A stretch of DNA of 64,000 nt, taken from contig PBTY01000006.1 of NCBI GenBank assembly GCA_002729235.1, positions 31,835 to 95,834 on the forward strand. Reading direction: 5' to 3'. Position 1 is the first letter of the stretch. Every line of letters begins with the position of its first letter. The translations under genes were made by a program, and so were the position numbers. The stretch is from Rickettsiales bacterium. GTDB lineage: Bacteria > Bacteroidota > Bacteroidia > Cytophagales > Cyclobacteriaceae. The notes under the pieces were generated by a model. That model saw nothing but the letters and a program-made list of their open reading frames with translations, was not told where the DNA came from and made no database searches. Below, piece after piece: positions 8,144 through 22,907 of this stretch.

Positions 8144-8641
8144 ATGAAAGGAATTTATCTACTTCTAGGAACTAATCTGGGTGATCGGCTGGAAAATCTA
8201 AAAAAAGCTGCCGAGATCCTAGAATCAATGAATCTCTCGATTGTTGATTATTCGTCAGTTTATGAATCTGCACCCTGGGGCAAGGAAGACCAACCCTGGT
8301 TTCTTAATATGGTGTTGCGCATCGACACGATCATGCCTCCAGAAAAACTTCTGGATGCCTGTCTAGAGACTGAGAAGCGAATGGGGCGTGTCAGAGAAAT
8401 CAAGTGGGGTGAGCGCATAATTGATGTAGACATCCTATATTATGATAATGAAATAATCAATGAAGAAAATCTAATTATCCCACATCCAGGTATCCCTTCT
8501 CGTCAATTTACATTGATTCCATTAGTTGAAATCTCACCAGATGAAGTTCATCCATCTCTTGTCAAATCAAACACACAATTATTGGAAAAGTGTAAGGATT
8601 CGCTTGACTGTAAAATATCTGACTTTGAACTGATTTTATGA
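8144..8641 (+). CDS. folK: 2-amino-4-hydroxy-6-hydroxymethyldihydropteridine diphosphokinase
   Basis: Transfers pyrophosphate from ATP to 6-hydroxymethyl-dihydropterin in folate synthesis. About 165 residues, the normal size. LLLGTNLGDR at the N-terminus, SSVYESAPWG, WFLNMVLRI, GRVREIKWGERIIDVDILYY (the catalytic DxD) and IPHPGIPSRQFTL are all family signatures. The ORF track begins at a TTG, and the ATG one codon later is preferred. The stop overlaps the next start by ATGA, so translation is probably coupled to the TauE/SafE gene. Confidence 0.95.
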   Translation: MKGIYLLLGTNLGDRLENLKKAAEILESMNLSIVDYSSVYESAPWGKEDQPWFLNMVLRIDTIMPPEKLLDACLETEKRMGRVREIKWGERIIDVDILYYDNEIINEENLIIPHPGIPSRQFTLIPLVEISPDEVHPSLVKSNTQLLEKCKDSLDCKISDFELIL

Positions 8642-9390
8642 CCTTTAATGAAGCCTTAATACTTCTTGGAGTTGGTTTGTTTACCGGAGTAATCAATACA
8701 CTTGCTGGAGGTGGATCGTTAATTACTCTCCCACTTTTTATTTTTATGGGATTGCCTTCTAGTGAAGCAAACGCTACCAATAGAATTGGCGTATTCCTGC
8801 AAAGTCTTGTCGCTGTGGGAGGCTTTAGAAGTAAGGGAATATCTGTATTCCCATATGCGATCTATGTAGCGATCACAGCGGTCATAGGGAGTGTTATCGG
8901 AGCTTATTTTGCGATGGATATTCGTGGCGATCTGTTCAATAAGATTCTGGCTATAGTGATGTTGATTGTGATGGTACTAACCATCCTTAAACCATACCTG
9001 CAAAAAAAAGGAGCTACGGAGTTATTCACTCCTAAGACTCAATTTCTCAGCATTGTCATGTTCTTTTTTGTGGGACTTTATGGTGGATTCATTCAGGCTG
9101 GAGTAGGATTCCTAATCATTGCTACACTCACTGGTATTCATGGATTGAGCATGGCCAAAACCAACAGTATTAAATCATTCGTGATTGTTTGTTATACCGC
9201 GGTTGCGCTGACCATATTTATCTTCGAAGATAAAGTTAGATGGGACTATGGTTTGACCTTAGCTGCTGGCAACTCAGCTGGTGGCTGGATTGCCAGCAGA
9301 TGGTCAGTAGGTGTAGACGAAAAATGGGTTCGTCTTATCCTTTTAATCACTGTAGTTGGTATGGCTACTAAACTATGGTTTTTTAGCTAG
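8638..9390 (+). CDS. TauE/SafE family membrane permease
   Basis: 250 residues with about eight hydrophobic segments in two related halves, as in the TauE/SafE (sulfite/organosulfonate exporter) family. The N-terminal GLFTGVINTLAGGGSLI and the second-half GLYGGFIQAGVGFLII are the paired glycine-rich repeats of that family. It overlaps folK by 4 bases (ATGA). The substrate cannot be read from sequence, and no sulfur metabolism genes are nearby. The stop is immediately followed by the LamG remnant on the other strand. Confidence 0.85.
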   Translation: MTFNEALILLGVGLFTGVINTLAGGGSLITLPLFIFMGLPSSEANATNRIGVFLQSLVAVGGFRSKGISVFPYAIYVAITAVIGSVIGAYFAMDIRGDLFNKILAIVMLIVMVLTILKPYLQKKGATELFTPKTQFLSIVMFFFVGLYGGFIQAGVGFLIIATLTGIHGLSMAKTNSIKSFVIVCYTAVALTIFIFEDKVRWDYGLTLAAGNSAGGWIASRWSVGVDEKWVRLILLITVVGMATKLWFFS

Positions 9391-9510
9391 CTATTCGTTT
9401 ATTAATGCAGTAATTTCAGACGCCGAAAGAGATCGAGAATAAATTCTAACTTCATCAATCTTACCTCTAAACGGATCATTTTTAAAATCAGAATTATAGA
9501 ACTTCGCAAG
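9391..9510 (-). pseudogene. C-terminal remnant of a LamG/concanavalin-like domain protein
   Basis: This intergenic stretch, absent from the ORF track, reads on the minus strand as 40 open codons ending in TAG. It contains FRGKIDEVRIYSRSLSAS, then EITALINE and the stop. The pattern G-x-IDEVRIYxRxLSxxEI is the typical last strand of LamG-type (Laminin_G_3) domains of secreted Bacteroidota proteins. Upstream the frame hits a stop (TGA) at 9511-9513, 10 bases before the flippase gene. No start codon or rest of the gene is present. It is therefore a truncated relic, probably cut when the polysaccharide island arrived. Confidence 0.7.
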
Positions 9511-9523
9511 TCAAAAGTAAAAT

Positions 9524-11017
9524 ATGGGCGTAGTAATCAAGCAAAGTTTTTGGGGGTCGCTTCTGGCTTATTTAGGAGTTGTTATTGGTTTTCTCAATAC
9601 CATATACTTAAGACCACTTTTCCTTGATCTAGATGAAATTGGACTTATCACTATGGTTGTATCCAATGCGTTACTTATTGCTCCATTTGTTGCCGTGGGA
9701 ATGCCAGCTACTTACATCAAGTACTTCCCATATTTTCAACAGGATGAGTTTTTAAATCGACAATTTTTTTCCTTTCAATTAGTGGTAATTATTCTGGCCA
9801 ATATTCTATTGGCGTTGTTAGTTTGGGCTGGTTTTGGGTTCATAGAAAAGTATTATCAAGCTGACTCGTCTGAGTATCTAAACTATGTTTGGATTTCCGT
9901 AATCATCACACTATTTAGTGCAATATTTCTTCAGCTTCATTCCTATTCGAGAACCAAATTAGATGTTGTTCTCCCCAATGGAATAAAGGAAGTTGGTTTC
10001 AGGCTTGGCAGTATAACAGCGATTATCTTGTTGGGATTAAAGCTCATCAGTTTACAGACTACCATCTATCTTTTCGTGGCCATCTACATAATACCGGTAG
10101 TTATTCTATTTTATAATCTTTACAAAAAATACAATCTCCGACTTACATGGTCGTTCAGTCAAATCAAGAAACAATGGATTTCCAAAATGGCCAATTTTGG
10201 TGGATACAGCCTTTTACTTGCAGGTAGTGGATCAATTTACTCCAACATTAGCTTCCTAATGATCCCTGCAATGTTGTCACTTGAAGCAAATGGGATTTAT
10301 TCTACATGCTTTTATATAGGTATTGTCATTGAAATGCCAAAAAGAGCAATGGGGCAGATAGTATCTCCTCTGATTTCTACACATTTTAAAACCAATGATT
10401 TCAAGGAAATCAACAATTTGTATAAGAAGGTATCTCACACGCTTACAATCATATCCATTCTCTTTTTCATCGGCATCCTAAACAATCTATCTGACCTTTT
10501 CAGTTTGATTCCCAAAGGAAGTGTTCTGGCAAATGGATATTACGTAGTATTGTTCATTTCCATCTCAAAAGTGGTGGACTTAGCTTTCAGTATTAACTCA
10601 GAGATTCTGGTTTATTCTAAATTCAAAAAACTCAACCTGTATTATTACGTCATGACTGCCCTCCTCATGCTAGTGCTTAATTATTCATTGATTCCGATAT
10701 ATGGCATTTCCGGAGCAGCATTTGGATTTTTGATTACCACGTTTGTCTTTAACCTACTCAAGTCGATTACACTTAAAATTAAATTAGGGCTATCTCCTTT
10801 CACTAAAAAGCATTTAGGGATTTTGTTGTTTTCATCACTGGTGACTATCACTTTCTACTTTCTTCCATTAACAAACAATGCCCTATGGAATATAATTATT
10901 CGTTCTGTGCTCATGACCATTGTATATGTAGTAGGAGTTTATATTTTTAAGTTTTCTAATGACATTAACAATCTAATCGAAAATCTTGCAAAGAAGTATC
11001 TTAAGATCTCGTTCTGA
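9524..11017 (+). CDS. Wzx-like polysaccharide flippase (MATE/MOP superfamily)
   Basis: 497 residues with about 12-14 membrane helices along the whole length, and the GSLLAYLGVVIGFLNTIYL start typical of the polysaccharide transport (RfbX/Wzx) family. It probably flips undecaprenyl-linked glycan repeat units across the inner membrane. It is the first gene of the surface-glycan island and lies 12 bases before the YfhO gene. AT-rich compared with folK-tauE. The family is clear, but the exact glycan is not. Confidence 0.82.
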   Translation: MGVVIKQSFWGSLLAYLGVVIGFLNTIYLRPLFLDLDEIGLITMVVSNALLIAPFVAVGMPATYIKYFPYFQQDEFLNRQFFSFQLVVIILANILLALLVWAGFGFIEKYYQADSSEYLNYVWISVIITLFSAIFLQLHSYSRTKLDVVLPNGIKEVGFRLGSITAIILLGLKLISLQTTIYLFVAIYIIPVVILFYNLYKKYNLRLTWSFSQIKKQWISKMANFGGYSLLLAGSGSIYSNISFLMIPAMLSLEANGIYSTCFYIGIVIEMPKRAMGQIVSPLISTHFKTNDFKEINNLYKKVSHTLTIISILFFIGILNNLSDLFSLIPKGSVLANGYYVVLFISISKVVDLAFSINSEILVYSKFKKLNLYYYVMTALLMLVLNYSLIPIYGISGAAFGFLITTFVFNLLKSITLKIKLGLSPFTKKHLGILLFSSLVTITFYFLPLTNNALWNIIIRSVLMTIVYVVGVYIFKFSNDINNLIENLAKKYLKISF

Positions 11018-11029
11018 CTACTTTATCAA

Positions 11030-13477
11030 ATGAAAGACTCAATTAAAAAATTTGCTAAGACACATTTACTGGCAATACTTGGTTTTATAGCAATCACTGT
11101 AGCATTGTATTACCCATATTTTGTAGATGGACTTCAAATTAGTCAGCATGATGTTCTACAGGGAAATGGAGCAACGCATCTTCTTGAAGAATATGAAGCG
11201 AATGGTGGAGAAGAGGCTCTTTGGTTATATACAATGTTTAGTGGAATGCCAGCATACCTAAATGGGATGGAATTCTCCATCAATAGTATGCATGTTGTCT
11301 ACAAGATATTCAAGTTAGGAATGCCACATCCAGAAGGGATTACCTTCATTTCCTTCATTTCTTTCTATGTTTTATTGTTAAGTTTTGGCACAAGACCATG
11401 GATAGCTTTTGCTGGAGCAGTTGCATTTGGCTTGAATGGCTTCTCGATTATTGGAATTATGGCTGGTCATAATGCCAAAATTGCTTCTGTAGCACTCATG
11501 CCTCTGGTTCTTGCGGGTATCCACTTAACTTTCAATCATAAAAAGTGGATTGGAGCTGGACTGACCGCCATTGGGTTGGGATTACAACTATATACCAATC
11601 ACTACCAGATAACCTATTACCTTTTATTGATCACCTTAATTTATGGTGCATTTGCTCTTTTCTTTGCGGTTAAGAATGGTCTTCTTAAGCCTTTCGCCAA
11701 TAGTTTATTATGGCTAGTAGGAGCTGCTATTTTGGCTGTGGGATCTAACGCCGGGGATCTTCTGACCATTTCAGAATACAGCAAATATAGTATTCGAGGT
11801 AAATCCGAATTAACTGCCGAATCAGCAGAGTCTGGAGGTCTTGATAAAGAATATGCCTTTAGATATAGTAATGGCATTATGGAACCTCTATTTCTATTTG
11901 TGCCGAATTTTTTTGGAGGCTCTACTCAACAAGAGCTTAGTGAAAACTCCGAGAGTGCTCAGGCATTATTGAAAGCAGGTATGTCCCGAGCTCAAGTAAA
12001 TCAGCAAATAAAAGCACTACCAACCTATTGGGGAGACCAACCTGCTACCGCTCCATATTACGCCGGATCAATTGCCTTCTGTCTTGCCATTGCGGCTATG
12101 TTTTTTTTAAAGAAGGAAGAAAAATGGTGGTTGATAGTTGCAGGAAGTCTAGGTATCATTCTCAGTTGGGGTCATAATCTAGAAAGTGTTAATATTTTCT
12201 TGTTTGACTACCTTCCTGGTTATAACAAATTCCGCGCAGTTACCTTCACTATCATTATCACCTTGATTGCTTTATATATTTTGGCATTTACTGGACTAGA
12301 AAGAATATTTTCGTCGGAATATAATAAGCCATTCTTTCAAAAACTATTAAAAGCTTTTGGTGTAGGTGTTGGTTTTTTAGTTTTACTTATCATTTCTTCT
12401 TGGTTTCTTGGTTTCAAGGCGCCTATTGATGCGCAGTTACCAGATTGGTTAGTGGATCCATTGCGTACTGATAGAGCATCTTTACTGAGATCTGATGCCT
12501 TTAGAGCTTTGTTTTTTGTAATTGCATTTTCTGGCTGTACGATAGCTCTCTTCAAGAGTAAGTTAAAAGCAACCTTAGCGGTTGCTTTACTTATTGGTTT
12601 AATTACATTAGACAATTTCACTTTATCAAAACGGTTTATTAAAAGCGAGATGTTTGAAAAGGCGCCAGCGAAATCCTATTTCGTAGCATCAGAGGCGGAT
12701 CAGGCTATTCTTGATGTCTCAAAACCAGGTGAAAGAGTATTCAATTTGCAAAATCCATTTAATGAAGCTAGAACATCTTACTATCATGAATCAATAGGTG
12801 GATATCATGGCGCTAAATTGAGACGTTATCAGGACATCATTTCGCATAATTTAAACAATGAGCTGAGTGGAATAATTTCGAGTCTTCAGGCAGGCAAACG
12901 TGATTTCTCTAATTTCCCAGTGACCAACATGTTGAATGCTCGATATTTCATGGCCGGAAATTCTAAAAACGCTGTTTTAAGAAACCCCAACGCTCTGGGT
13001 ACGGGCTGGATTGTCGGTCGAACAATTGCCGTGAACAGCGCGGACGATGAAATTGCACAGCTGAATAATTTTGATCCCTCAAAAGAGGCGATCATCGATC
13101 AGACTAAATTCAATCTACCATCGATAAATACTAAAGTAAATGGATCAGTTCAACTCATTTCTAAAACACCGAATGAGCTTATTTACTCTGCTAATCTAAC
13201 AGGTGGTGATGGTTTAGCCATTTTTAGTGAAGTATATTACCCGAAGGGTTGGCATGCTTTTGTAGATGGGGAGGAAATTGACATACTTCGTGCAAATTAC
13301 ATTCTGAGAGCAGTACCTCTCAAAGCTGGTAATCATGAAGTCAAATTTCTATTCGAACCAACATCATATTCACTGGGTAATCAATTAACAACCATTTTTG
13401 GTGTGCTAACTGTTCTGGTATTTATTACCGGAGTTTATATGGAGGCAAAGCAAGAAATAATTCCAAAAAGTGAATAA
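11030..13477 (+). CDS. YfhO family membrane protein
   Basis: 815 residues. An N-terminal region of about 12 membrane helices (to about 545) has an early loop containing QHDVLQGNG and MFSGMPAYLNGM. A soluble region and a final helix (about 785-805) follow. The segment with YYPKGWHAFVDG and the beta-rich C-terminus are typical of YfhO proteins. YfhO members are GT-C-like and in Bacillus are linked to glycosylation of lipoteichoic acid. In Bacteroidota they often sit next to polysaccharide genes. Position between flippase and FkbM gene suggests a glycan role, which is inference. Confidence 0.82.
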   Translation: MKDSIKKFAKTHLLAILGFIAITVALYYPYFVDGLQISQHDVLQGNGATHLLEEYEANGGEEALWLYTMFSGMPAYLNGMEFSINSMHVVYKIFKLGMPHPEGITFISFISFYVLLLSFGTRPWIAFAGAVAFGLNGFSIIGIMAGHNAKIASVALMPLVLAGIHLTFNHKKWIGAGLTAIGLGLQLYTNHYQITYYLLLITLIYGAFALFFAVKNGLLKPFANSLLWLVGAAILAVGSNAGDLLTISEYSKYSIRGKSELTAESAESGGLDKEYAFRYSNGIMEPLFLFVPNFFGGSTQQELSENSESAQALLKAGMSRAQVNQQIKALPTYWGDQPATAPYYAGSIAFCLAIAAMFFLKKEEKWWLIVAGSLGIILSWGHNLESVNIFLFDYLPGYNKFRAVTFTIIITLIALYILAFTGLERIFSSEYNKPFFQKLLKAFGVGVGFLVLLIISSWFLGFKAPIDAQLPDWLVDPLRTDRASLLRSDAFRALFFVIAFSGCTIALFKSKLKATLAVALLIGLITLDNFTLSKRFIKSEMFEKAPAKSYFVASEADQAILDVSKPGERVFNLQNPFNEARTSYYHESIGGYHGAKLRRYQDIISHNLNNELSGIISSLQAGKRDFSNFPVTNMLNARYFMAGNSKNAVLRNPNALGTGWIVGRTIAVNSADDEIAQLNNFDPSKEAIIDQTKFNLPSINTKVNGSVQLISKTPNELIYSANLTGGDGLAIFSEVYYPKGWHAFVDGEEIDILRANYILRAVPLKAGNHEVKFLFEPTSYSLGNQLTTIFGVLTVLVFITGVYMEAKQEIIPKSE

Positions 13478-13509: not shown

Positions 13510-14406
13510 ATGAAACAACTCTTTTACAAACTGATATATCAACCAACTTTTAATTTCGTCCTCAGGAATTTAAATAAGCTTCTATATCCATTGTTGCCGA
13601 AGCAAATCACTTTACCTCCATCTGGTGTGATAACCATCAATGTGGAAAATAAACCATTGAAATTGCTCACCAATCAAACAAATTATTTAACCCAGCTAGT
13701 GTTTTGGAATGGATATCAAAATTTTGAGTATACGCCTATTTTTACCGATTTAATTAAAAACATCAATTGCTTTTTTGACATTGGTGCCAACATAGGATAC
13801 TATAGTTTACTGGCAGCTCACCTTAATCCTAAAATGACAATCATTGCTTTTGAGCCAGCAGCAGGTCCTCTACATTATTTGAAGGAAAACGTTAGAAAAA
13901 ATCAATTTAACAACATCAAAATTGAAGGTTTAGCACTTTCCGACAAATTGGGTGAAATAACCTTCTATACTGTGGAATCAGAAAAATACCATTTTATCAA
14001 ACACAATCTTGCCGGCGAAGGAAATGCCGGATCCAAAACTACGGAGAGAAATTTCGTGAAAAACACTGTAACTTCTACAACTCTATCAACATACATTGAA
14101 CAAAATCAAGTGGGCGCTATCGATTTAATAAAGATTGACACAGAAGGAACTGAGCACATTATTTTAGGAAATGGCAGAGAGGTACTGGAAGACCACAAAC
14201 CCATTATAATATGTGAAACTCTCTTTGATAAAATAGAAAATCAGTTAGACGATCTTCTTTCATCATATGGCTATGAGTTTTACAACCATGTATCTGGAGG
14301 ACTTCAGCAGGTTGAAACAATTAAAAGAAATCAGGATAATGGAGTAACCAATTGTTTTTTTGTGCACCCTGATAAGAAAAAACTTATAGAGCCATATATA
14401 ATATAA
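13510..14406 (+). CDS. FkbM family methyltransferase
   Basis: 298 residues. The SAM-binding motif I is FFDIGANIGYYSLLAA (about 92-107), motif II is IIAFEPAAGPL, and a later IDLIKIDTEGTEHIILGNG is the signature of FkbM methyltransferases, which O-methylate sugars or polyketides. The N-terminal 60 residues are extra and basic. In a polysaccharide island the likely substrate is a sugar hydroxyl. It is 32 bases after the YfhO gene and AT-rich. Confidence 0.85.
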   Translation: MKQLFYKLIYQPTFNFVLRNLNKLLYPLLPKQITLPPSGVITINVENKPLKLLTNQTNYLTQLVFWNGYQNFEYTPIFTDLIKNINCFFDIGANIGYYSLLAAHLNPKMTIIAFEPAAGPLHYLKENVRKNQFNNIKIEGLALSDKLGEITFYTVESEKYHFIKHNLAGEGNAGSKTTERNFVKNTVTSTTLSTYIEQNQVGAIDLIKIDTEGTEHIILGNGREVLEDHKPIIICETLFDKIENQLDDLLSSYGYEFYNHVSGGLQQVETIKRNQDNGVTNCFFVHPDKKKLIEPYII

Positions 14407-14434
14407 TTATTTGCACTAACCATAACTGAACCTC

Positions 14435-15094
14435 ATGGGAATATTAAGTAAAACGTTTAGAAAAATTTTCTATAACCCCAAGGAAAAAAGACATGAATTG
14501 GTTGGTCCTGGGAAATTGTGGAAGTTAAAAAGAGATTTCCAAATAAATTTCTTGAAATCGCAGGGCCTAAAAACTACAGATAATTTTCTAGACATAGGAT
14601 GTGGGACATTACGTGGGGGCATCCCTTTAATCCAATACTTGAATAAAGGATTATACTCTGGCATAGATGTTAGAGAAATTGCTATAAGAGAGGCAAAAAA
14701 GGAGCTCATTGATGAGAAACTTATTGATAAAAACCCTAAAATTATATTATTTAACAAGTTCAATGAGTTGACTTTTGAAGATAAATTTGACGTTATCCTC
14801 GCCTTTGCTGTTCTCTTTCATCTTGAAGATCATATTTTGAAAGATTGTCTAGAGTTTGTAAAACAGAACTTAAAGCCAAATGGTAAATTTTACGCTAATA
14901 TTTATCCTGCTGCTAAAAGTGATGGAAAATGGCTGGATTTTCCCGTGGTTTTTAGAAGTTTAGATTTTTACCAGAAGCATGCTGAACAAAATCAATTGTC
15001 TATTAAAGTAATTGATACCATGGAAAATCTTGGACATATTACGAATATGCCGGGTGATCAACAAGTTATGTTAGAATTCTCACACTCCAATTAA
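14435..15094 (+). CDS. Class I SAM-dependent methyltransferase
   Basis: 219 residues with motif I NFLDIGCGTLRGGIPLI (about 45-61), an acidic residue after GLYSGIDVRE and the strand FDVILAFAVLFHL. These fit the class I Rossmann methyltransferase fold (Methyltransf_11/23 type). The substrate is not determinable, and sugar or lipid methylation is suggested by the neighbours. It ends the plus-strand half of the island and converges on the sulfotransferase with 7 bases between stops. Strongly AT-rich. Confidence 0.78.
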   Translation: MGILSKTFRKIFYNPKEKRHELVGPGKLWKLKRDFQINFLKSQGLKTTDNFLDIGCGTLRGGIPLIQYLNKGLYSGIDVREIAIREAKKELIDEKLIDKNPKIILFNKFNELTFEDKFDVILAFAVLFHLEDHILKDCLEFVKQNLKPNGKFYANIYPAAKSDGKWLDFPVVFRSLDFYQKHAEQNQLSIKVIDTMENLGHITNMPGDQQVMLEFSHSN

Positions 15095-15101
15095 AGACTA
15101 A

Positions 15102-16049
15102 TCAATCACTTAAATCATAATCATACTTAGAGGCTAATTTTCCTAGGCTCTTCCTTATCAAACGTAATTCAGCTTCATTTAATTTACCTCTCCATTTATT
15201 CAAAGAACTAGTGTTAATTGGATTATTCAGGTTCTGGTGATATTCCAGATTTGATACTCCCATTGCATCAATGTGTTCAGAAAAACTGAATATGTCAGGA
15301 TCATAATTATATCCTAAAAAACTCAACACCTTGTCCATACTCTCCTCCGGAAAAGAAACTAAATCTTTGTAATGAATCAACAACACATCCTTCTTCTTAC
15401 GCTTTAAATACTCATACATTCTAATGCTATCTTTCCATTTCCAAATAGCATGATTGATGTTGCTGGCAGGGTGGTCCTTCATTTTTGAATAAGAGTAAAC
15501 TACCTCTCTAGGATCTCGTATCAAATAAATAAATTTTGCCCTTGGAAATTCTTCACTGATTAGTTTAGAATGATGAGTCATAAGTGGTGAATTATCTCCC
15601 ACGCTTTCTATAAGGTATTTACCAAGTGTATTTCCATAATTTAGAAATACTCGCTTAGTAATATTCTCATATGACAAAGGGGTTTTTAGTAAATCGTATT
15701 TACCTTTTTGCAATTGATCAAATGTAACAGTCCAATTAACCGTATTCCCAGGCTTAGTGTAAGCAGCAAATAACCTATCAACAAACAAATTATCACTCAT
15801 ATTTCTAGATAATTGCCATTCCATTGCATAGTAAGGAAGAACAAACTGCTCTGGCGGGATAAAAATTTTAGCGTGTTCATTCAATATAGCTGAGAGAAGA
15901 GTACTTCCGTTTCTGCCAGAACCCATGATAAAAAAGAAAGACGTATCGGAAATGGAATTTATGTTACGATCTCCCAGCACCAACTTAATCATATTAATTA
16001 GCCCAGGAACTAACCATCGATATTTAATGTATTGTATTTTTGAATTCAA
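15102..16049 (-). CDS. Sulfotransferase family protein (PAPS-dependent)
   Basis: 315 residues. The 5'-phosphosulfate-binding loop is MGSGRNGSTLLSAIL (about 42-56) and the 3'-phosphate-binding segment is LIRDPREVVYSYSK, with the later LSFLGY strand typical of bacterial Sulfotransfer_3 proteins. It probably transfers sulfate from PAPS to a sugar or lipid. Last gene of a seven-gene minus-strand operon; its start overlaps the upstream glycosyltransferase stop by ATGA. Confidence 0.83.
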   Translation of the reverse strand: MNSKIQYIKYRWLVPGLINMIKLVLGDRNINSISDTSFFFIMGSGRNGSTLLSAILNEHAKIFIPPEQFVLPYYAMEWQLSRNMSDNLFVDRLFAAYTKPGNTVNWTVTFDQLQKGKYDLLKTPLSYENITKRVFLNYGNTLGKYLIESVGDNSPLMTHHSKLISEEFPRAKFIYLIRDPREVVYSYSKMKDHPASNINHAIWKWKDSIRMYEYLKRKKKDVLLIHYKDLVSFPEESMDKVLSFLGYNYDPDIFSFSEHIDAMGVSNLEYHQNLNNPINTSSLNKWRGKLNEAELRLIRKSLGKLASKYDYDLSD

Positions 16050-17065
16050 TGAATAATCTGTTTAATCTGGTTGATTCTAGATTCGATAGGATATTCAATC
16101 TCAATATGTTCTGAAACATTACAGTTCACACTTAATTCAGCACTTAAGGCTTCATCTATTTTCATCTCCAATTCTTTTGCAGACCTTCTAGTCACAATGT
16201 ATCCATATGGTCCACTTATTTGTGGTAAAACATTCACATTAGATACGACAGGTATACATCCACATAGCATCGCCTCGCATAATGCACATCCAAACCCCTC
16301 ATAAATTGATAATTGTAAATAATAACGACACTTTCCGTACAAATCTTTTAACTGATCAGAATTGAGTCTACCAAGAAAACGAACATTTCCAGGACAATCA
16401 TCGATACCATTATGTCCAGCTATGAAGAATTCACAATCTGTAAATATTTGTGAAATCTCTAAAATTAAATCAAGGCCCTTTCGCCTTTCCTGACCATGTC
16501 CAATAACTGACACAAAAGTTTTTTCTACTTTAATTACTTCTTTGGATTTAATCCAAAAATTAAGATCAAAACCATTAGGTATAACTTTATAAGGAGTCTT
16601 CAAATCCGGAATTATCATTTGGATGCCGAGTGATCTCTTATTATTATCATAATAATCATTCTCTGTAAACATTAGTGAATCACTTACAGGTAAAAGCATC
16701 GTACATTTTTCGTATGACTTCCTACAAAACCAACCAATTGGAAAACTTTTTAAATACCCATAATTGATCTCATCAAAAGAAACGCTATCTGTCCCATTTA
16801 AAATAATATAAGAATCTTGCTTTTTTAATCGGGACACTAAAACCCCAATGTAAGAATGGTAGCCACCAAAAGAAATTAATATTGGGGCTTTGGACTCTTT
16901 TAATAGCCACCAAAAAAGTTTCGATATATATAAGGGCAGCAAAAATTTATTTGGAACCTTAAAAAAGTATGACGTAACTTGAAACTCCTTTTTCAACCAT
17001 TCAATATCCTGAAGTACAAATGCTGATTTACCTGGTGCAATATAAATTAACTTCCTTTTACCCAT
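16046..17065 (-). CDS. Family 4 glycosyltransferase (GT-B fold)
   Basis: 339 residues. The C-terminal half has SVIGHGQERRKGLDLILE, VRFLGRL and the donor-binding E-x7-E motif in YEGFGCALCEAMLCG, diagnostic of GT4 (Glycos_transf_1). The N-terminal half is short and lacks the usual GG(x)xR start, beginning instead with IYIAPGKSAFVLQDIEWL. Overlaps the next gene by 4 bases and follows the first sulfotransferase by 11 bases. Sugar donor and acceptor are unknown. Confidence 0.83.
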   Translation of the reverse strand: MGKRKLIYIAPGKSAFVLQDIEWLKKEFQVTSYFFKVPNKFLLPLYISKLFWWLLKESKAPILISFGGYHSYIGVLVSRLKKQDSYIILNGTDSVSFDEINYGYLKSFPIGWFCRKSYEKCTMLLPVSDSLMFTENDYYDNNKRSLGIQMIIPDLKTPYKVIPNGFDLNFWIKSKEVIKVEKTFVSVIGHGQERRKGLDLILEISQIFTDCEFFIAGHNGIDDCPGNVRFLGRLNSDQLKDLYGKCRYYLQLSIYEGFGCALCEAMLCGCIPVVSNVNVLPQISGPYGYIVTRRSAKELEMKIDEALSAELSVNCNVSEHIEIEYPIESRINQIKQIIH

Positions 17066-17076
17066 TTAGAACTCAC

Positions 17077-17949
17077 CTAATCACCAATCAAGTTATTCAC
17101 TCTTTCGTTGCTGTCGTGAAAATAATCTGCAATCCTTTCCTTTTGATCTTTAGTATAAAAAAACTTTCTAGCAGAAATTAATTTTAGAAAATATGGATCC
17201 AAAATAACGGCAAAAATTTTCCAAATATTTTTCGAAGAAATCCTATTCCAAATCAATTGATTTGGTCTTTCACTATTGAATGTGAAATGGTTAAGAATTC
17301 TCAAAACCTGTATACTTAAATTACTAAGAGATTTATTTGATCTAATCGACACGTCAAGTTCAATGCCAGAATCTAAGAACTTACTCAACTCAGATTCGAA
17401 CCTATTCTTATCTACCTTCAACCATTCATTTCTTAGAATAAGGACATTTTCTGATCCAAAAACATTTTGGTATACTGATATTAACAAATCATACTTTAAA
17501 TAATCAAGATGGAAAGCTCTGAGATAAGGGTTCCATTTAAGGTCCAGGTTCAAAAAATCTCGAAATCCCATTACTCCTCCCTGAACCACATATTGGCGAT
17601 ACATTGAATCAACCAAACTCACCTGATCTCTTATTGTAATGATCACCTTATCGAATCCTAATTGTTTAAGTCTTTCTGGAATAGCTGACCTACCTAAACC
17701 TTTAAACTTAAAAGGAGCACCAGAAAGTGTTTCGTACGAAGCAAGATTATTCCCTTCTTTAGAGAATAGACTCAATCGCTTTTCAACCAATTTTTTATCA
17801 TAATCCAAATCATCAAGGTATATAAGGTCCATAAAAATCTGATGACTTTGATGATAATCGATAAAATTCCAATTCTTCAGTTTTGGAAAAACATTCCATT
17901 GAAGAAAAGTTGTCCCTGTCTTAGGATATCCAATATGGACTACATTCAT
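17077..17949 (-). CDS. Sulfotransferase domain protein (second copy)
   Basis: 290 residues with the PAPS loop directly at the N-terminus (HIGYPKTGTTFLQWNVF, about 6-22) and the 3'-phosphate segment KVIITIRDQVSLVDSMYRQY. It is more like Sulfotransfer_1 proteins than its neighbour at 15.1 kb and is not a recent duplicate of it. Starts inside the aminotransferase stop (ATGA overlap). Together the two genes predict a doubly sulfated glycan or two sulfation positions. Confidence 0.82.
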   Translation of the reverse strand: MNVVHIGYPKTGTTFLQWNVFPKLKNWNFIDYHQSHQIFMDLIYLDDLDYDKKLVEKRLSLFSKEGNNLASYETLSGAPFKFKGLGRSAIPERLKQLGFDKVIITIRDQVSLVDSMYRQYVVQGGVMGFRDFLNLDLKWNPYLRAFHLDYLKYDLLISVYQNVFGSENVLILRNEWLKVDKNRFESELSKFLDSGIELDVSIRSNKSLSNLSIQVLRILNHFTFNSERPNQLIWNRISSKNIWKIFAVILDPYFLKLISARKFFYTKDQKERIADYFHDSNERVNNLIGD

Positions 17950-19043
17950 GATTCAAACCTATTAACAACATCTGAAATGAACTTCACTGATCCGTTTGTT
18001 AGTTCTGGATACATTGGTATTGAGACAATCTCACCAGATAGCTTATGAGAAATAGCAAACTTCTCTTCGCTATTCTCTTGATAAGAGTATGCTTTTGTCA
18101 ACGGAAGAGGTGTTGGATAATGTATCGCACATCCAATCCCTTTGTTCCCAATTACAGTCATCAGGTGGTCCCTCTTTAAAGATCTAATCACATAAAGATG
18201 ATAAGCATGGTAATAACCATCCACCTTCACAGGTTTTACAATGTCTTCATCAAGGTACTGATCATACCATTGAGCAACCTGATTTCTTGCTTGAACCCAT
18301 TGATCCAGATATGGAAGTTTGGCTTTCAATATTGCTGCCTGCATCGTATCCATCCGGCTGTTTCTACCGATAATTTGATGATCATGCTTTGAGAGCTGTC
18401 CATGATTACCAATCATTCTACAATGACGGGCGAGCTCATCATTGTTCGTCACTATACCACCAGCATCGCCGTACGCACCCAGGTTTTTACCTGGATAAAA
18501 ACTGAAAGAAGCCGCGTGTCCAAATGTTCCCACTTTCTTCCCATTGATTGAAGCACCGTGGGCCTGTGCACAATCTTCTATAACTTTCAACTTGTATTGT
18601 CTTGCAATATTCAGAATGTCCTCCATGCGTGCTGGCATACCGTACAAATGAACAGGTATAATTGCTTTTGTTCTATTCGTAATTGCAGCAAGAATCAAGG
18701 ATGGATCAATGGTATATTCATCCTCCAAGACATCCACAAAAACAGGTTCAGCACCCACATTGTTAACCACCTCAGCGGTAGAAATCCAACTATTCGCTGG
18801 TACTAATACCTCATCTCCTGGACCAACACCCATAGCTTTCAGGATGATTTCCATGGAATCTGTCCCATTAGCACAGGCAACACAATGCTTCAAACCTATA
18901 TATTCGGCAAAAGCTATTTCGAACTCAGAAACAATACCCCCACCAATAAAACTGGTATTGTTGATTACACCTGCAATAGCCCTGTCAATCTCTTCTTTTA
19001 TCGACTCATACTGAGCTTTCAGATCCACAAATGGAATTTTCAT
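17946..19043 (-). CDS. DegT/DnrJ/EryC1/StrS-type sugar aminotransferase (WbpE-like)
   Basis: PLP-dependent sugar aminotransferase, 365 residues. MKIPFVDLKAQYESIKEEID is the classic N-terminus, EDCAQAHGA holds the Asp that contacts the PLP ring, and FYPGKNLGAYGDAGGI holds the PLP lysine. Next to a WbpB-like dehydrogenase and a WbpD-like acetyltransferase it most likely aminates the 3-keto sugar in synthesis of a 2,3-diacetamido-2,3-dideoxyuronic acid. Overlaps the downstream sulfotransferase by ATGA and follows the acetyltransferase by 2 bases. Confidence 0.88.
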   Translation of the reverse strand: MKIPFVDLKAQYESIKEEIDRAIAGVINNTSFIGGGIVSEFEIAFAEYIGLKHCVACANGTDSMEIILKAMGVGPGDEVLVPANSWISTAEVVNNVGAEPVFVDVLEDEYTIDPSLILAAITNRTKAIIPVHLYGMPARMEDILNIARQYKLKVIEDCAQAHGASINGKKVGTFGHAASFSFYPGKNLGAYGDAGGIVTNNDELARHCRMIGNHGQLSKHDHQIIGRNSRMDTMQAAILKAKLPYLDQWVQARNQVAQWYDQYLDEDIVKPVKVDGYYHAYHLYVIRSLKRDHLMTVIGNKGIGCAIHYPTPLPLTKAYSYQENSEEKFAISHKLSGEIVSIPMYPELTNGSVKFISDVVNRFES

Positions 19044-19045
19044 TT

Positions 19046-19504
19046 TTATCTAATTTTTCTAGCAGGATTGCCTGCATACACCCCCACCTCTGTGATGTCC
19101 TTTGTTACTACAGAACCCGCCCCGATCACCACATGATCGATAATGCTTACCGGCAAAATAGTAGCATTGGATCCAATAGAAACGTGGTTACCAATTTTGG
19201 TAGCTTTCCACATGGTCTGATCTCCCCCAGCTGGTCCTCCTTTTTGAAACAAATCATTGATAAACATCACTCCATGACCAATGAAGCAATGGTCTCCTAT
19301 CTCAACCAACTCACATATAAAACTATGTGATTGAACTTTACTCTCTTTGCCAATAGCAACGTTCTTTTGGATTTCCACAAATGGTCCAATGAAGCATTGA
19401 TCACCAATAGAACAACCGTATAAATTCACCGGCTTAATCACCTTGACATTTTTGCCGAAAGAAACATTCTTTATCCCTGATTCATGAAAGATTGGTTCAG
19501 CCAT
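19046..19504 (-). CDS. WbpD-like hexapeptide N-acetyltransferase
   Basis: About 152 residues of left-handed beta-helix hexapeptide repeats. Includes YGCSIGDQCFIGPFVEIQ, SHSFICELVEIGDHCFIGHG and the C-terminal VGVYAGNPARKIR, like WbpD/WlbB acetyltransferases acting on UDP-3-amino sugars. The ORF track begins 24 bases earlier. Met9 is preferred because it gives a compact ATGGCTGA overlap with the upstream gene and the normal N-terminus (AEPIFHESG). Expected to use acetyl-CoA as a trimer in the cytoplasm. Confidence 0.85.
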   Translation of the reverse strand: MAEPIFHESGIKNVSFGKNVKVIKPVNLYGCSIGDQCFIGPFVEIQKNVAIGKESKVQSHSFICELVEIGDHCFIGHGVMFINDLFQKGGPAGGDQTMWKATKIGNHVSIGSNATILPVSIIDHVVIGAGSVVTKDITEVGVYAGNPARKIR

Positions 19505-20510
19505 TTGCAGCCCGGTAAATTTTATCAATAATTTCCACAGTTTTCAGTCCTTCAAATCCATTCGTTGCGATCACCCCATGATTGGTCAAAACCTCAATTA
19601 CATTTTCATAAACCTTATCATGATTAGACATTGATCCCTGGTATTCGCCATATTCATTGGCAGGATTTCCTGGCGCTAGCTCCCCGATTTCGAAATCGTC
19701 AATATTCTGATAATCAAGGCTATTGAGATATTGGCCTCCTACTTTCACAGTTCCTTTTTCACCAAATAATGTAAGAGATCCTTCCATATTCTTACCAAAT
19801 GAGTTGACCGAGTAATTAATAGTTCCAATAGCTCCATTGAAAAAGCGTAGAGTAACAACACCGGTATCTTCAAAATCTATGACTCCCTGATGCGCGTAGT
19901 TGCCAGTAAACGCTGTAACATCCACTACATCACCAACTATCCAATATAAAAGATCAATAAAATGACTGAATTGAGTATATAGAGTTCCTCCATCGAGATC
20001 TTTACTTCCTTTCCAATCAGAATTTTGATAATAATTGAAGTTACGATTCCAAAAACAATTCAACTGCACCGACAGGAGTTTACCCAGTCTTCCTTCATCC
20101 ACAATTTTCTTGATCTCCGCAACTGCAGGATTGAAACGGTTCTGTTTCACAATAAATAATCTCCTATTGGCTTTTTCTGCAGCATTGATCATTCTACCAC
20201 AATCATGAACAGAGATAGCCATTGGTTTCTCACATAGCACATGAAATCCGGCTTCCAAAGCAGCAATAGTATGCTCAGCATGCAACCCATTAGGCGTGCA
20301 GATCGAAATAACGTCGATTTCAGGATGATTACTCAGAAGTTCCTCAATTGAATGATATCCAGCGACACCAAACTCAGTCGTGAACTCATTCACTGCTTCT
20401 GTCTTAATATCAGAAACCGCTACCAACTTACCCAGTCTTGTGATATGACCAGCGTGTCGTTTTGCAATTCTACCACAACCGATTATTCCGAATTTAATAG
20501 GATCACTCAT
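19497..20510 (-). CDS. Gfo/Idh/MocA oxidoreductase (WbpB/WlbA-like)
   Basis: 337 residues. Rossmann motif GIIGCGRIAKRHAGHI at the N-terminus, then SICTPNGLHAEHTI and CEKPMAISVHDCGRMI, the family's catalytic EKP. The set LFIVKQNRFNPAV, YYQNSDWKGSKDLDGG and SHFIDLLYWIVGD is characteristic of WlbA/WbpB, which oxidises C3 of UDP-N-acetylglucosaminuronate. ATGA overlap with the glycosyltransferase upstream. No UDP-GlcNAc 6-dehydrogenase (WbpA) is in the window, so the precursor must come from elsewhere. Confidence 0.88.
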   Translation of the reverse strand: MSDPIKFGIIGCGRIAKRHAGHITRLGKLVAVSDIKTEAVNEFTTEFGVAGYHSIEELLSNHPEIDVISICTPNGLHAEHTIAALEAGFHVLCEKPMAISVHDCGRMINAAEKANRRLFIVKQNRFNPAVAEIKKIVDEGRLGKLLSVQLNCFWNRNFNYYQNSDWKGSKDLDGGTLYTQFSHFIDLLYWIVGDVVDVTAFTGNYAHQGVIDFEDTGVVTLRFFNGAIGTINYSVNSFGKNMEGSLTLFGEKGTVKVGGQYLNSLDYQNIDDFEIGELAPGNPANEYGEYQGSMSNHDKVYENVIEVLTNHGVIATNGFEGLKTVEIIDKIYRAANG

Positions 20511-21814
20511 AGATTTTCGAGTAACGAGTTTAGCTGCTTTGTCTGATTCGATCTGGAGTATTTTTCAAGAAGTCTTTTCATGTGATCAGGGTTAGGTGAA
20601 TAGTTGTTCTCGAAATTAGATAAAATGAACTTACTAAACTCATTCACCTGCTCAAACTCATACATTCCACCAATTTCATTTTGCTGAAACATCTCATTGA
20701 GTTCACTATTACAATCTCCAAGGCTAAGAATTGGTTTTCCTGCAGATAAATACTCAAAAAATTTCATTGGCAAAATCCATTGAGCATTATCACTTTTATT
20801 GAGTAATAACAGTAATAAACTGGCTTTACTGTACTCCTCAAACACCTCATTTTGTGTCAAATAACCAAGCAGCACAACTTTATCTTTCAAATACTTACTT
20901 GATAATAATCGCTGCTGTATACTTTCAGATACAATACCTCCTAGCCTAATCTCTAATTGTGAATTGAATTCCGGATTTTCCTTGCAAATAATTTCCAATT
21001 CATCCCACAGATGGTGAGGATCTCGAATTTCATTGAGCATACCAAAATAACCGATCACAAATTTATCTGATTCTTTTGTAGGTTGGTTAATACTGATTCG
21101 ATCATCAGAAATACCATTAGTAAGCAATTTCACTGTTATTGCATCGCCTTTGGATCTAAAATTCTGTGCCAATCGATTACTTACTGTCAGTACCAGATCA
21201 CTTGTAGTTAATACTTTTCTCTCCAGATTTTGATGTCTTTTAAGATTATAGCGACTGGTTTTGAGCTTTTTAATTACATCCCAATCAGACCACGGATCTC
21301 TAAAATCGGAAATCCAATTCAATTCTGGCATTGCTTTTTTAAGACGATAACCAATTAGATGCATACTATGAGGTGGACCTGTAGTAATTATCGTTCTAAT
21401 TTCATTTTCGTGGATCGCATTTTTCAATACTTTCACGGACCTTCCTATCCAAAATTTTCTTGGATCCGGAACAAATAAATTTCCTCGAATCCAAACTAGT
21501 AAATCATCCTTCCAACTTTTGGCACTTTTCTCCATGACCAAACCTTGCTTGACATTATGTCGATTTTTATTGCCAGTGAGTTTGTGGAAAAAATTAAAGG
21601 GCTCCCAAATCTCCTCTTTGATCACCCGAAGATCCTTTACATAGTTTAGTAAATGTTCATCCTTAATATCAAATTGTGGATTTGATGGGGTGTAAATGAT
21701 TGGTTCCCAGCCCATTTTCTGCAGATTAATCGCAAAATGCATCCAGCGATGAACGCCAACTCCGGCACTCGGTGGCCAATAGTATGTAATGATCAAAATT
21801 CGCTTATTCTGCAT
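20507..21814 (-). CDS. Family 4 glycosyltransferase, first gene of the minus-strand glycan operon
   Basis: 435 residues. N-terminal RILIITYYWPPSAGVGVHRW and TTGPPHSMHLIGYRLKK with DFRDPWSDWD are typical of Bacteroidota GT4 proteins. The C-terminal domain has VIGYFGMLNEIRDPHHL, VVLLGYLTQNEVFEEYSKA and MKFFEYLSAGKPILSLG, where FEYLSAGKP takes the place of the E-x7-E region. Probably builds the glycan in the cytoplasm. All seven genes from here to 15102 overlap or lie within 12 bases of each other, so one transcript from left of 21936 is likely. Confidence 0.83.
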   Translation of the reverse strand: MQNKRILIITYYWPPSAGVGVHRWMHFAINLQKMGWEPIIYTPSNPQFDIKDEHLLNYVKDLRVIKEEIWEPFNFFHKLTGNKNRHNVKQGLVMEKSAKSWKDDLLVWIRGNLFVPDPRKFWIGRSVKVLKNAIHENEIRTIITTGPPHSMHLIGYRLKKAMPELNWISDFRDPWSDWDVIKKLKTSRYNLKRHQNLERKVLTTSDLVLTVSNRLAQNFRSKGDAITVKLLTNGISDDRISINQPTKESDKFVIGYFGMLNEIRDPHHLWDELEIICKENPEFNSQLEIRLGGIVSESIQQRLLSSKYLKDKVVLLGYLTQNEVFEEYSKASLLLLLLNKSDNAQWILPMKFFEYLSAGKPILSLGDCNSELNEMFQQNEIGGMYEFEQVNEFSKFILSNFENNYSPNPDHMKRLLEKYSRSNQTKQLNSLLENL

Positions 21815-21935: not shown

Positions 21936-22907
21936 ATGAAAAGTATTGGTGTTTTTACATCGGGAGGAGATGCGCCAGGCATGAACGCCTGTATACGCTC
22001 AGTTGTAAGAACGGGGCTCTACCTTGGATTGGATGTCTACGGCATCAAATATGGGTACAATGGGATGATAGATGGTGACATCTATAAAATGAAATCCTAT
22101 TCGGTATCAAACATTGTTCAACGTGGAGGTACGATTCTCAAATCTGCCAGATCTATGGAGTTTAAAACCAAAGAAGGTAGAGCGAAAGCATACGAGCAAC
22201 TGAAGAAAAGAGGGATTGAAGGCCTTGTAGCTGTCGGTGGTGATGGAACCTTCACAGGAGCCAATATTTTCTATGAAGAATATGGTATTCCAATCGTAGG
22301 TGCACCAGGAACAATTGACAATGACCTTTATGGATCAGATTATACAATTGGATTCGATACTGCGGTAAATACCGCTCTTGATGCAATTGACAAAATTAGA
22401 GATACTGCTAACTCTCACGACCGAGTATTCTTCATTGAAGTAATGGGAAGACACTCTGGCTATATCGCCATTCAAAGTGGTATTGGTGGAGGTGCCGAAA
22501 TGGTCATGGTTCCAGAAACCTCGACTACTATCAATGATGTGATCAACACATTGAGAGAAGGTAGAGATAAGCAGAAAACTTCTTCCATCGTAGTGGTGGC
22601 AGAGGGTGGTGAACAAGGTGATGCTCATGAAATAGCAGGAAGAGTATCGAAAGAACTACCTGAATTGGATATCAGAGTTTCTACCCTAGGACACATTCAA
22701 AGAGGTGGTTCCCCTACTTCTTACGATAGAATCTTGTCATCTCGTTTAGGAATGGCTGCCGTAGAAGGACTAGTAAATGGTGAAAAGAATGTAATGGTTG
22801 GAGTGGTGAATGATAAGGTTACTTTTACCAGCTTCAAGCTAGCCATCTCTAAAGCAAAACCAATCAATCAAGAATTGATGCGATTGGTAGAAATACTAAG
22901 CATTTAA
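21936..22907 (+). CDS. pfkA: ATP-dependent 6-phosphofructokinase
   Basis: Phosphorylates fructose 6-phosphate in glycolysis. 323 residues, the usual bacterial length. TSGGDAPGMNACIRS (ATP site) opens the protein. VAVGGDGTFTGA has Gly-Asp-Gly at the ATP/PPi selectivity position, GAPGTIDNDLYGSD is the substrate loop with the catalytic Asp, and EVMGRHSGYIA follows. The Gly of the GGDGT motif favours ATP over pyrophosphate. Its last 12 bases overlap the end of miaA on the other strand. Confidence 0.96.
   Translation: MKSIGVFTSGGDAPGMNACIRSVVRTGLYLGLDVYGIKYGYNGMIDGDIYKMKSYSVSNIVQRGGTILKSARSMEFKTKEGRAKAYEQLKKRGIEGLVAVGGDGTFTGANIFYEEYGIPIVGAPGTIDNDLYGSDYTIGFDTAVNTALDAIDKIRDTANSHDRVFFIEVMGRHSGYIAIQSGIGGGAEMVMVPETSTTINDVINTLREGRDKQKTSSIVVVAEGGEQGDAHEIAGRVSKELPELDIRVSTLGHIQRGGSPTSYDRILSSRLGMAAVEGLVNGEKNVMVGVVNDKVTFTSFKLAISKAKPINQELMRLVEILSI

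Follow-up and report, generated by a model that had tools for sequence, protein, structure and literature searches.

Glycan loci of the O-antigen and capsule type are variable loci with a recognizable layout: conserved ends, a divergent wzx gene, a changing set of sugar-modification genes, and debris at the border. The locus described here, which has tauE and pfkA as its conserved ends, is alike in all these points. Literature searches returned nothing on this locus, nor on the lipoprotein family from which the debris at its left border probably derives.

The window, by which we mean the whole stretch of 64,000 nucleotides that was analysed, from a marine bacterium of the genus Marinoscillum, came with an initial annotation. 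It had pointed out a short minus-strand frame with a LamG-like end at the left edge of the glycan cluster, and had proposed that a glycan island replaced the 5' part of a resident gene for a secreted LamG protein. The placement is right, as the frame sits between tauE and wzx; the explanation is another matter, and we would replace the "island insertion scar" by the decay of a gene in a changeable slot at the edge of an old locus.

The locus between tauE and pfkA

The features of the locus are collected in Table 1. At its left flank, tauE is 80-87% identical in all five congeners. The Wzx-like flippase, by comparison, is 37-50% identical to its congeneric counterparts in the aligned set and 29% identical to that of G001, and its identity between congeners is no higher than that between genera, except for the 50% shared with G003. 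Set against flanks at 80-99%, these values mean that the wzx or cluster side of the locus clearly turns over between species. The Pfam family Polysacc_synt (PF01943) is matched by three of the five aligned Wzx members, the window protein itself missing the E-value limit of 0.01, and no solved structure matches the family by sequence. The variable rest of the cluster holds genes for an FkbM methyltransferase, another methyltransferase, two sulfotransferases, two glycosyltransferases, a DegT aminotransferase, a hexapeptide acyltransferase and a Gfo/Idh oxidoreductase.

Table 1. Features at the tauE-pfkA locus, with positions counted from the first letter of the window
Feature	Position	Strand	Basis or remark
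TauE/SafE permease gene tauE, intact, vertically inherited left flank	8638..9390	plus	Pfam TauE, 1.7e-40
Open frame of 39 codons plus stop, C-terminal end of a LamG (Laminin_G_3) gene, gene remnant	9391..9510	minus	Pfam and tail-HMM match, single copy
Likeliest junction of the LamG coding part with the wzx leader	9493..9499		inferred position; outer bounds about 9480-9505
Putative wzx promoter, -7-type box GAACTTCGC, motif [TG]ANNTTC[GA]C, not LamG	9499..9507	plus	recurrence upstream of wzx
Intact gene for a wzx-like flippase, first in the glycan cluster	9524..11017	plus	same start and length in homologues
Gene for a YfhO-type membrane protein, the second conserved one in the glycan cluster	11030..13477	plus	Pfam YfhO; 48-56% identity in most congeners
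Remaining, variable part of the glycan cluster	13510..21814		related DegT/acT/Gfo/GT2 end in several relatives
pfkA, conserved right flank	21936..22907	plus	93-99% identity in G001, G002, G005

The nearest named relatives of the genome are Marinoscillum sp. MSM7 (G004), which is a metagenome assembly, and M. pacificum MRN461 (G002), the only two that a scan of named genomes for tauE returned. The gene wzx follows tauE in both of them and in the congener G005, and also in G036, G039, G045, G046 and further genomes of genus g35. In the congener G001 yfhO comes first after tauE and wzx second. The cluster extends to pfkA in G001, G002 and G005, where the contigs allow this to be read. As most congeners and several other genera have wzx after tauE, the cluster, judged by gene order, is old at this place. 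In the congener G003 the next gene after tauE is an unrelated one of 410 aa, and the glycan cluster is found elsewhere in the genome (L127, G003:C1:123000-142900). This relocated cluster has the wzx closest to that of the window (50%). Its upstream neighbour is a gene of about 1118 aa that looks, by eye, like a pyruvate:ferredoxin oxidoreductase, which suggests a move of the entire cluster or of its flank.

A LamG gene end without the rest of the gene

The frame between tauE and wzx has 39 codons (9394-9510), one fewer than first counted, and encodes the peptide LAKFYNSDFKNDPFRGKIDEVRIYSRSLSASEITALINE. Its LamG end and its regular stop were both read correctly: the TAG stop (9391-9393) abuts the stop of tauE (9388-9390) with zero bases between them, and the translated fragment matches Pfam Laminin_G_3 (PF13385) with an E-value of 5e-7 and 30.4 bits, above the gathering score of 27.6. 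A Laminin_G_3 search of the whole genome found it again (E=3e-5). An HMM made from the tails of LamG-ended members of the lipoprotein family described below gave 47.3 bits (E=1.3e-13); the frame was its sole match among the 2513 stop-free frames of the window, and the last profile position was reached exactly at the stop. With E-values from 5e-7 (Pfam) to 1e-13 (tail HMM), the LamG identity is far beyond chance.

What is present is, however, far from a complete Laminin_G_3 domain of about 151 positions. The match covers positions 127-151 of the 151 alone, that is, the last 25. As the first ~126 positions are gone, the remnant cannot fold as a LamG domain, and it is a gene remainder, not a functional domain. 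Most likely it has no function beyond that of a spacer between tauE and wzx, possibly as a part of the wzx leader. At the DNA level its own genome has no second copy of it, and its best protein relatives there reach about 50% identity over 25-29 residues, and neither DNA nor protein searches of that genome returned a near-identical or intact source copy. No orthologue was found in the 397 genomes of the taxonomic family that were searched; the fragment is unique to its genome rather than conserved with the cluster in many.

The missing 5' part was looked for among the other LamG genes of the genome, an assembly of 6.55 Mb in 116 contigs. It has 33 LamG_3 matches, most of them in large proteins, and the remnant is the only one that lies in a frame under 600 aa. 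All other matches reach at least profile position 143, save for one domain that is split over two adjacent hits in a single frame. Thus no orphan 5' part truncated inside LamG came out of the Laminin_G_3 search of the assembly, and the rest of the gene is missing, just as the initial annotation had it. A split of the gene by inversion or translocation was also considered and is unsupported, as there is no detached 5' half among the LamG matches of the assembly. The intact LamG genes of the genome code almost without exception for long proteins in which LamG lies far from the stop. One of these large multidomain proteins scores 45.6 bits on the tail HMM against the 47.3 of the remnant, so that tail similarity alone does not settle the family. 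Two large minus-strand LamG genes are located within about 10 kb to the left of the window start (G000:C7:21555-21974 and C7:30367-30774, G000 being the genome of the window); neither is closely related to the remnant.

The tauE-wzx slot in relatives

The distance from tauE to the next gene of the cluster varies a good deal. The gap is 133 bases in the window, 86 in G005 and 112 in G001 (to yfhO), and it is about 1.4-2 kb in M. pacificum and in Marinoscillum sp. MSM7. In M. pacificum it is filled by a gene for a 438-aa lipoprotein (L091:10750-12066), which lies on the minus strand, tail to tail with tauE and with the two stops overlapping. The slot of MSM7 (L081 2283-4227) has two decayed genes: a homologous lipoprotein gene with frameshifts in its C-terminal CBM96 part, which in a metagenome assembly could be assembly errors, and a copy of the DegT aminotransferase gene with many stops. 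The tauE-wzx gap is therefore a variable slot that accepts different genes. An aminotransferase-like gene, in the same direction as tauE and wzx, is seen in the slot of G046 (L088 2266-3402) and of G114 (L166 7323-8387).

An intact LamG gene in the tauE-wzx slot is absent from all the relatives examined. A pattern search of 30 tauE loci (that of the window included), taking up to 1.5 kb on each side, found the remnant alone as a LamG gene after tauE. The comparison proposed at the outset, for close relatives that lack the glycan island and have a complete LamG gene next to tauE, turned up no such relative.

A lipoprotein family with interchangeable ends

The slot proteins of M. pacificum and MSM7 are homologous over their N-terminal ~250 aa to a lipoprotein of 474 aa encoded in the glycan cluster of G003 (33-36% identity, E-values 1e-31 to 3e-48). 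Their C-termini differ: the end is CBM96/DNRLRE in M. pacificum and in a paralogue in the window's own genome (C87:11510), and LamG in G003. The N-terminal region has no convincing match in Pfam, NCBIfam or PDB. An assignment of the G003 protein to NCBIfam TafC was rejected, with 64 bits against a cut-off of 410 and a match to the LamG part only. An AlphaFold2 model of the M. pacificum lipoprotein, made from only two sequences, had a pLDDT of 36.8, too low for further use.

A profile search with the N-terminal region found the family in 78 of the 397 genomes and in 29 of the 85 genera. Among the sampled members, twelve have a LamG end, and in these the IDxxRxY motif is followed by the stop after 13-20 aa. 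In the remnant the stop comes 15 aa after the motif (IDEVRIY), and 15 is the commonest value among the LamG-ended members. Two members, from two other genera, align with the remnant to the last residue, at 61.5% and 53.8% identity.

The surroundings were read for 19 members, of which six belong to the tauE...pfkA glycan locus or lie at its edge (G002, G003 with the relocated cluster, G004, G036, G145 and G114) and three in other glycan clusters (G000 C87, G037 and G217); the remaining ten are near neither. These 19 loci were picked by score and wzx linkage, several of them from one genus, so the figures describe an association and are no measured enrichment. LamG lipoproteins are found inside the glycan clusters of G003, G036, G145, G037 and G217. 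The C87 member of the window's own genome (G000:C87, L164 8478-9830) is intact, with 450 aa and a CBM96 end, and adjoins glycosyltransferase genes and a putative heptose-nucleotide gene set (NTP transferase/HAD fusion, GHMP kinase, SIS isomerase). G114, a genome of another genus, has a LamG-ended member at the other edge of the locus, where it separates GT2 from pfkA (C5, L166 15716-16906).

The break and the wzx leader

LamG similarity can be traced to residue 7 of the remnant, at about base 9492, and the motif of the wzx leader starts at 9499. The break is for this reason most likely to fall between these two points, 12-30 bases further left than the 9511-9523 given earlier. The sequence TTC[GA]C (here at 9503-9507) is present just upstream of wzx in all seven loci where no tight coupling joins wzx to the preceding gene. 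Of 65 upstream regions, eight carry its longer form, [TG]ANNTTC[GA]C, compared with one of 65 when the reverse strand is read; some of the eight are the wzx regions themselves. The same motif recurs shortly before gene starts within the genus. The usual -7 promoter element is TAnnTTTG, from which the motif differs; its recurrence suggests a putative -7-type promoter box of this lineage. Because the box takes up 9499-9507, the first four codons of the remnant frame (LAKF) probably belong to the wzx leader and not to LamG. The break is just upstream of the -7-like box, and wzx has thereby stayed intact.

Origin of the remnant

We consider it probable that the remnant is the dead 3' end of a LamG-ended surface-lipoprotein gene of the tauE-wzx slot, whose 5' part was lost. 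A lipoprotein gene with a LamG end (ConA-like, carbohydrate-binding) would once have filled the tauE-wzx slot, on the minus strand and convergent with tauE; M. pacificum has this arrangement today, with a homologous gene that has a CBM96 end. The 5' part of the gene, with its signal peptide and start, would have been lost together with the far half of the divergent promoter region between the lipoprotein gene and wzx, while wzx and the promoter half next to it were spared. Since one event suffices, a simple deletion has a slight edge, and a loss with replacement of the wzx-side allele would be nearly as likely. The lipoprotein assignment is favoured because the stop position, the strand and the slot all fit. 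Counting against it are four observations: the window has no N-terminal trace of the family, the tauE-wzx slot itself holds a LamG-ended member in none of the relatives, a large multidomain LamG protein of the genome scores nearly as well on the tail HMM, and about half of the sampled members (10/19) are away from glycan loci.

It is unlikely that the remnant comes instead from an unrelated LamG protein, such as a large secreted multidomain one, that happened to insert in the slot. The LamG domains of the genome are indeed mostly in large proteins, one of which nearly equals the remnant on the tail HMM, and the slot does take unrelated genes, as the 410-aa gene of G003 and the aminotransferase-like genes of G046 and G114 indicate. 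Almost all LamG proteins of the genome, however, run far past LamG, and the remnant stops as shortly after the motif as the lipoproteins do; nor does the genome have a near-identical source copy.

The insertion of a glycan island into a resident secreted LamG gene beside tauE, or its replacement of a part of that gene, is highly unlikely, and this model is largely refuted. The junction itself, a LamG 3' end directly followed by wzx, is what an insertion would leave; the alleles on the wzx side turn over, going by their low identity next to that of tauE, and the relocated cluster of G003 means that the block can move. Yet the cluster is old here, having wzx after tauE in most congeners and several other genera, no relative has the LamG gene without the cluster, and the lipoprotein genes of the slot go together with the glycan locus themselves.

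More remote still is the arrival of an already broken LamG end as the passenger of an incoming wzx or glycan allele from another strain. Sequence on the wzx side has been exchanged more than tauE, and the five glycan clusters named above do have LamG lipoproteins inside them, but the LamG stop that abuts the tauE stop with no spacer, much like the overlapping stop of the M. pacificum slot gene, looks native to the tauE side. Chance resemblance or an assembly artefact, for which one could cite the lack of an orthologue in the family genomes, can be given hardly any credence in view of the E-values and of flanking genes that are both intact, in the usual order and with the wzx leader motif kept, which makes a chimeric join unlikely.

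The remnant would thus be the ordinary end of a pseudogene, left by ordinary gene loss at a fast-changing locus, and no scar of a fresh island. What it points to is a family of lipoproteins with interchangeable carbohydrate-binding ends that recurs in or beside the glycan loci of this bacterial family, and from this comes a testable idea: does the protein recognize the surface glycan of its own cell? The slot lipoproteins might be surface lectins whose exchangeable LamG or CBM96 end is matched to the glycan of the neighbouring cluster, so that with a change of cluster the lectin is swapped or discarded. We regard this as rather doubtful; if true, the remnant would be the footprint of a loss driven by mismatch.

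Comparison with known systems

As a sequence, the remnant shows the typical end of Laminin_G_3 of the ConA-like lectin/glucanase superfamily, FxGKIDEVRIYxRxLSxxEI. With the lipoprotein family, whose C-terminal domain is LamG or CBM96, it shares a protein end within about 20 aa of the domain end, and the stop position of the LamG-ended members. Like the genes of M. pacificum and MSM7, it lies in the tauE-wzx slot and is convergent with tauE, a position that is not universal among members. Unlike the members of the family, it keeps the last ~33 codons only: the start is absent, and no frame of the window matches the N-terminal region of ~250 aa with the lipobox, which would have been deleted if the gene ever had it. 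Within a locus that otherwise resembles those of the O-antigen and capsule type, the remnant is a passenger at the border and not a gene of glycan biosynthesis.
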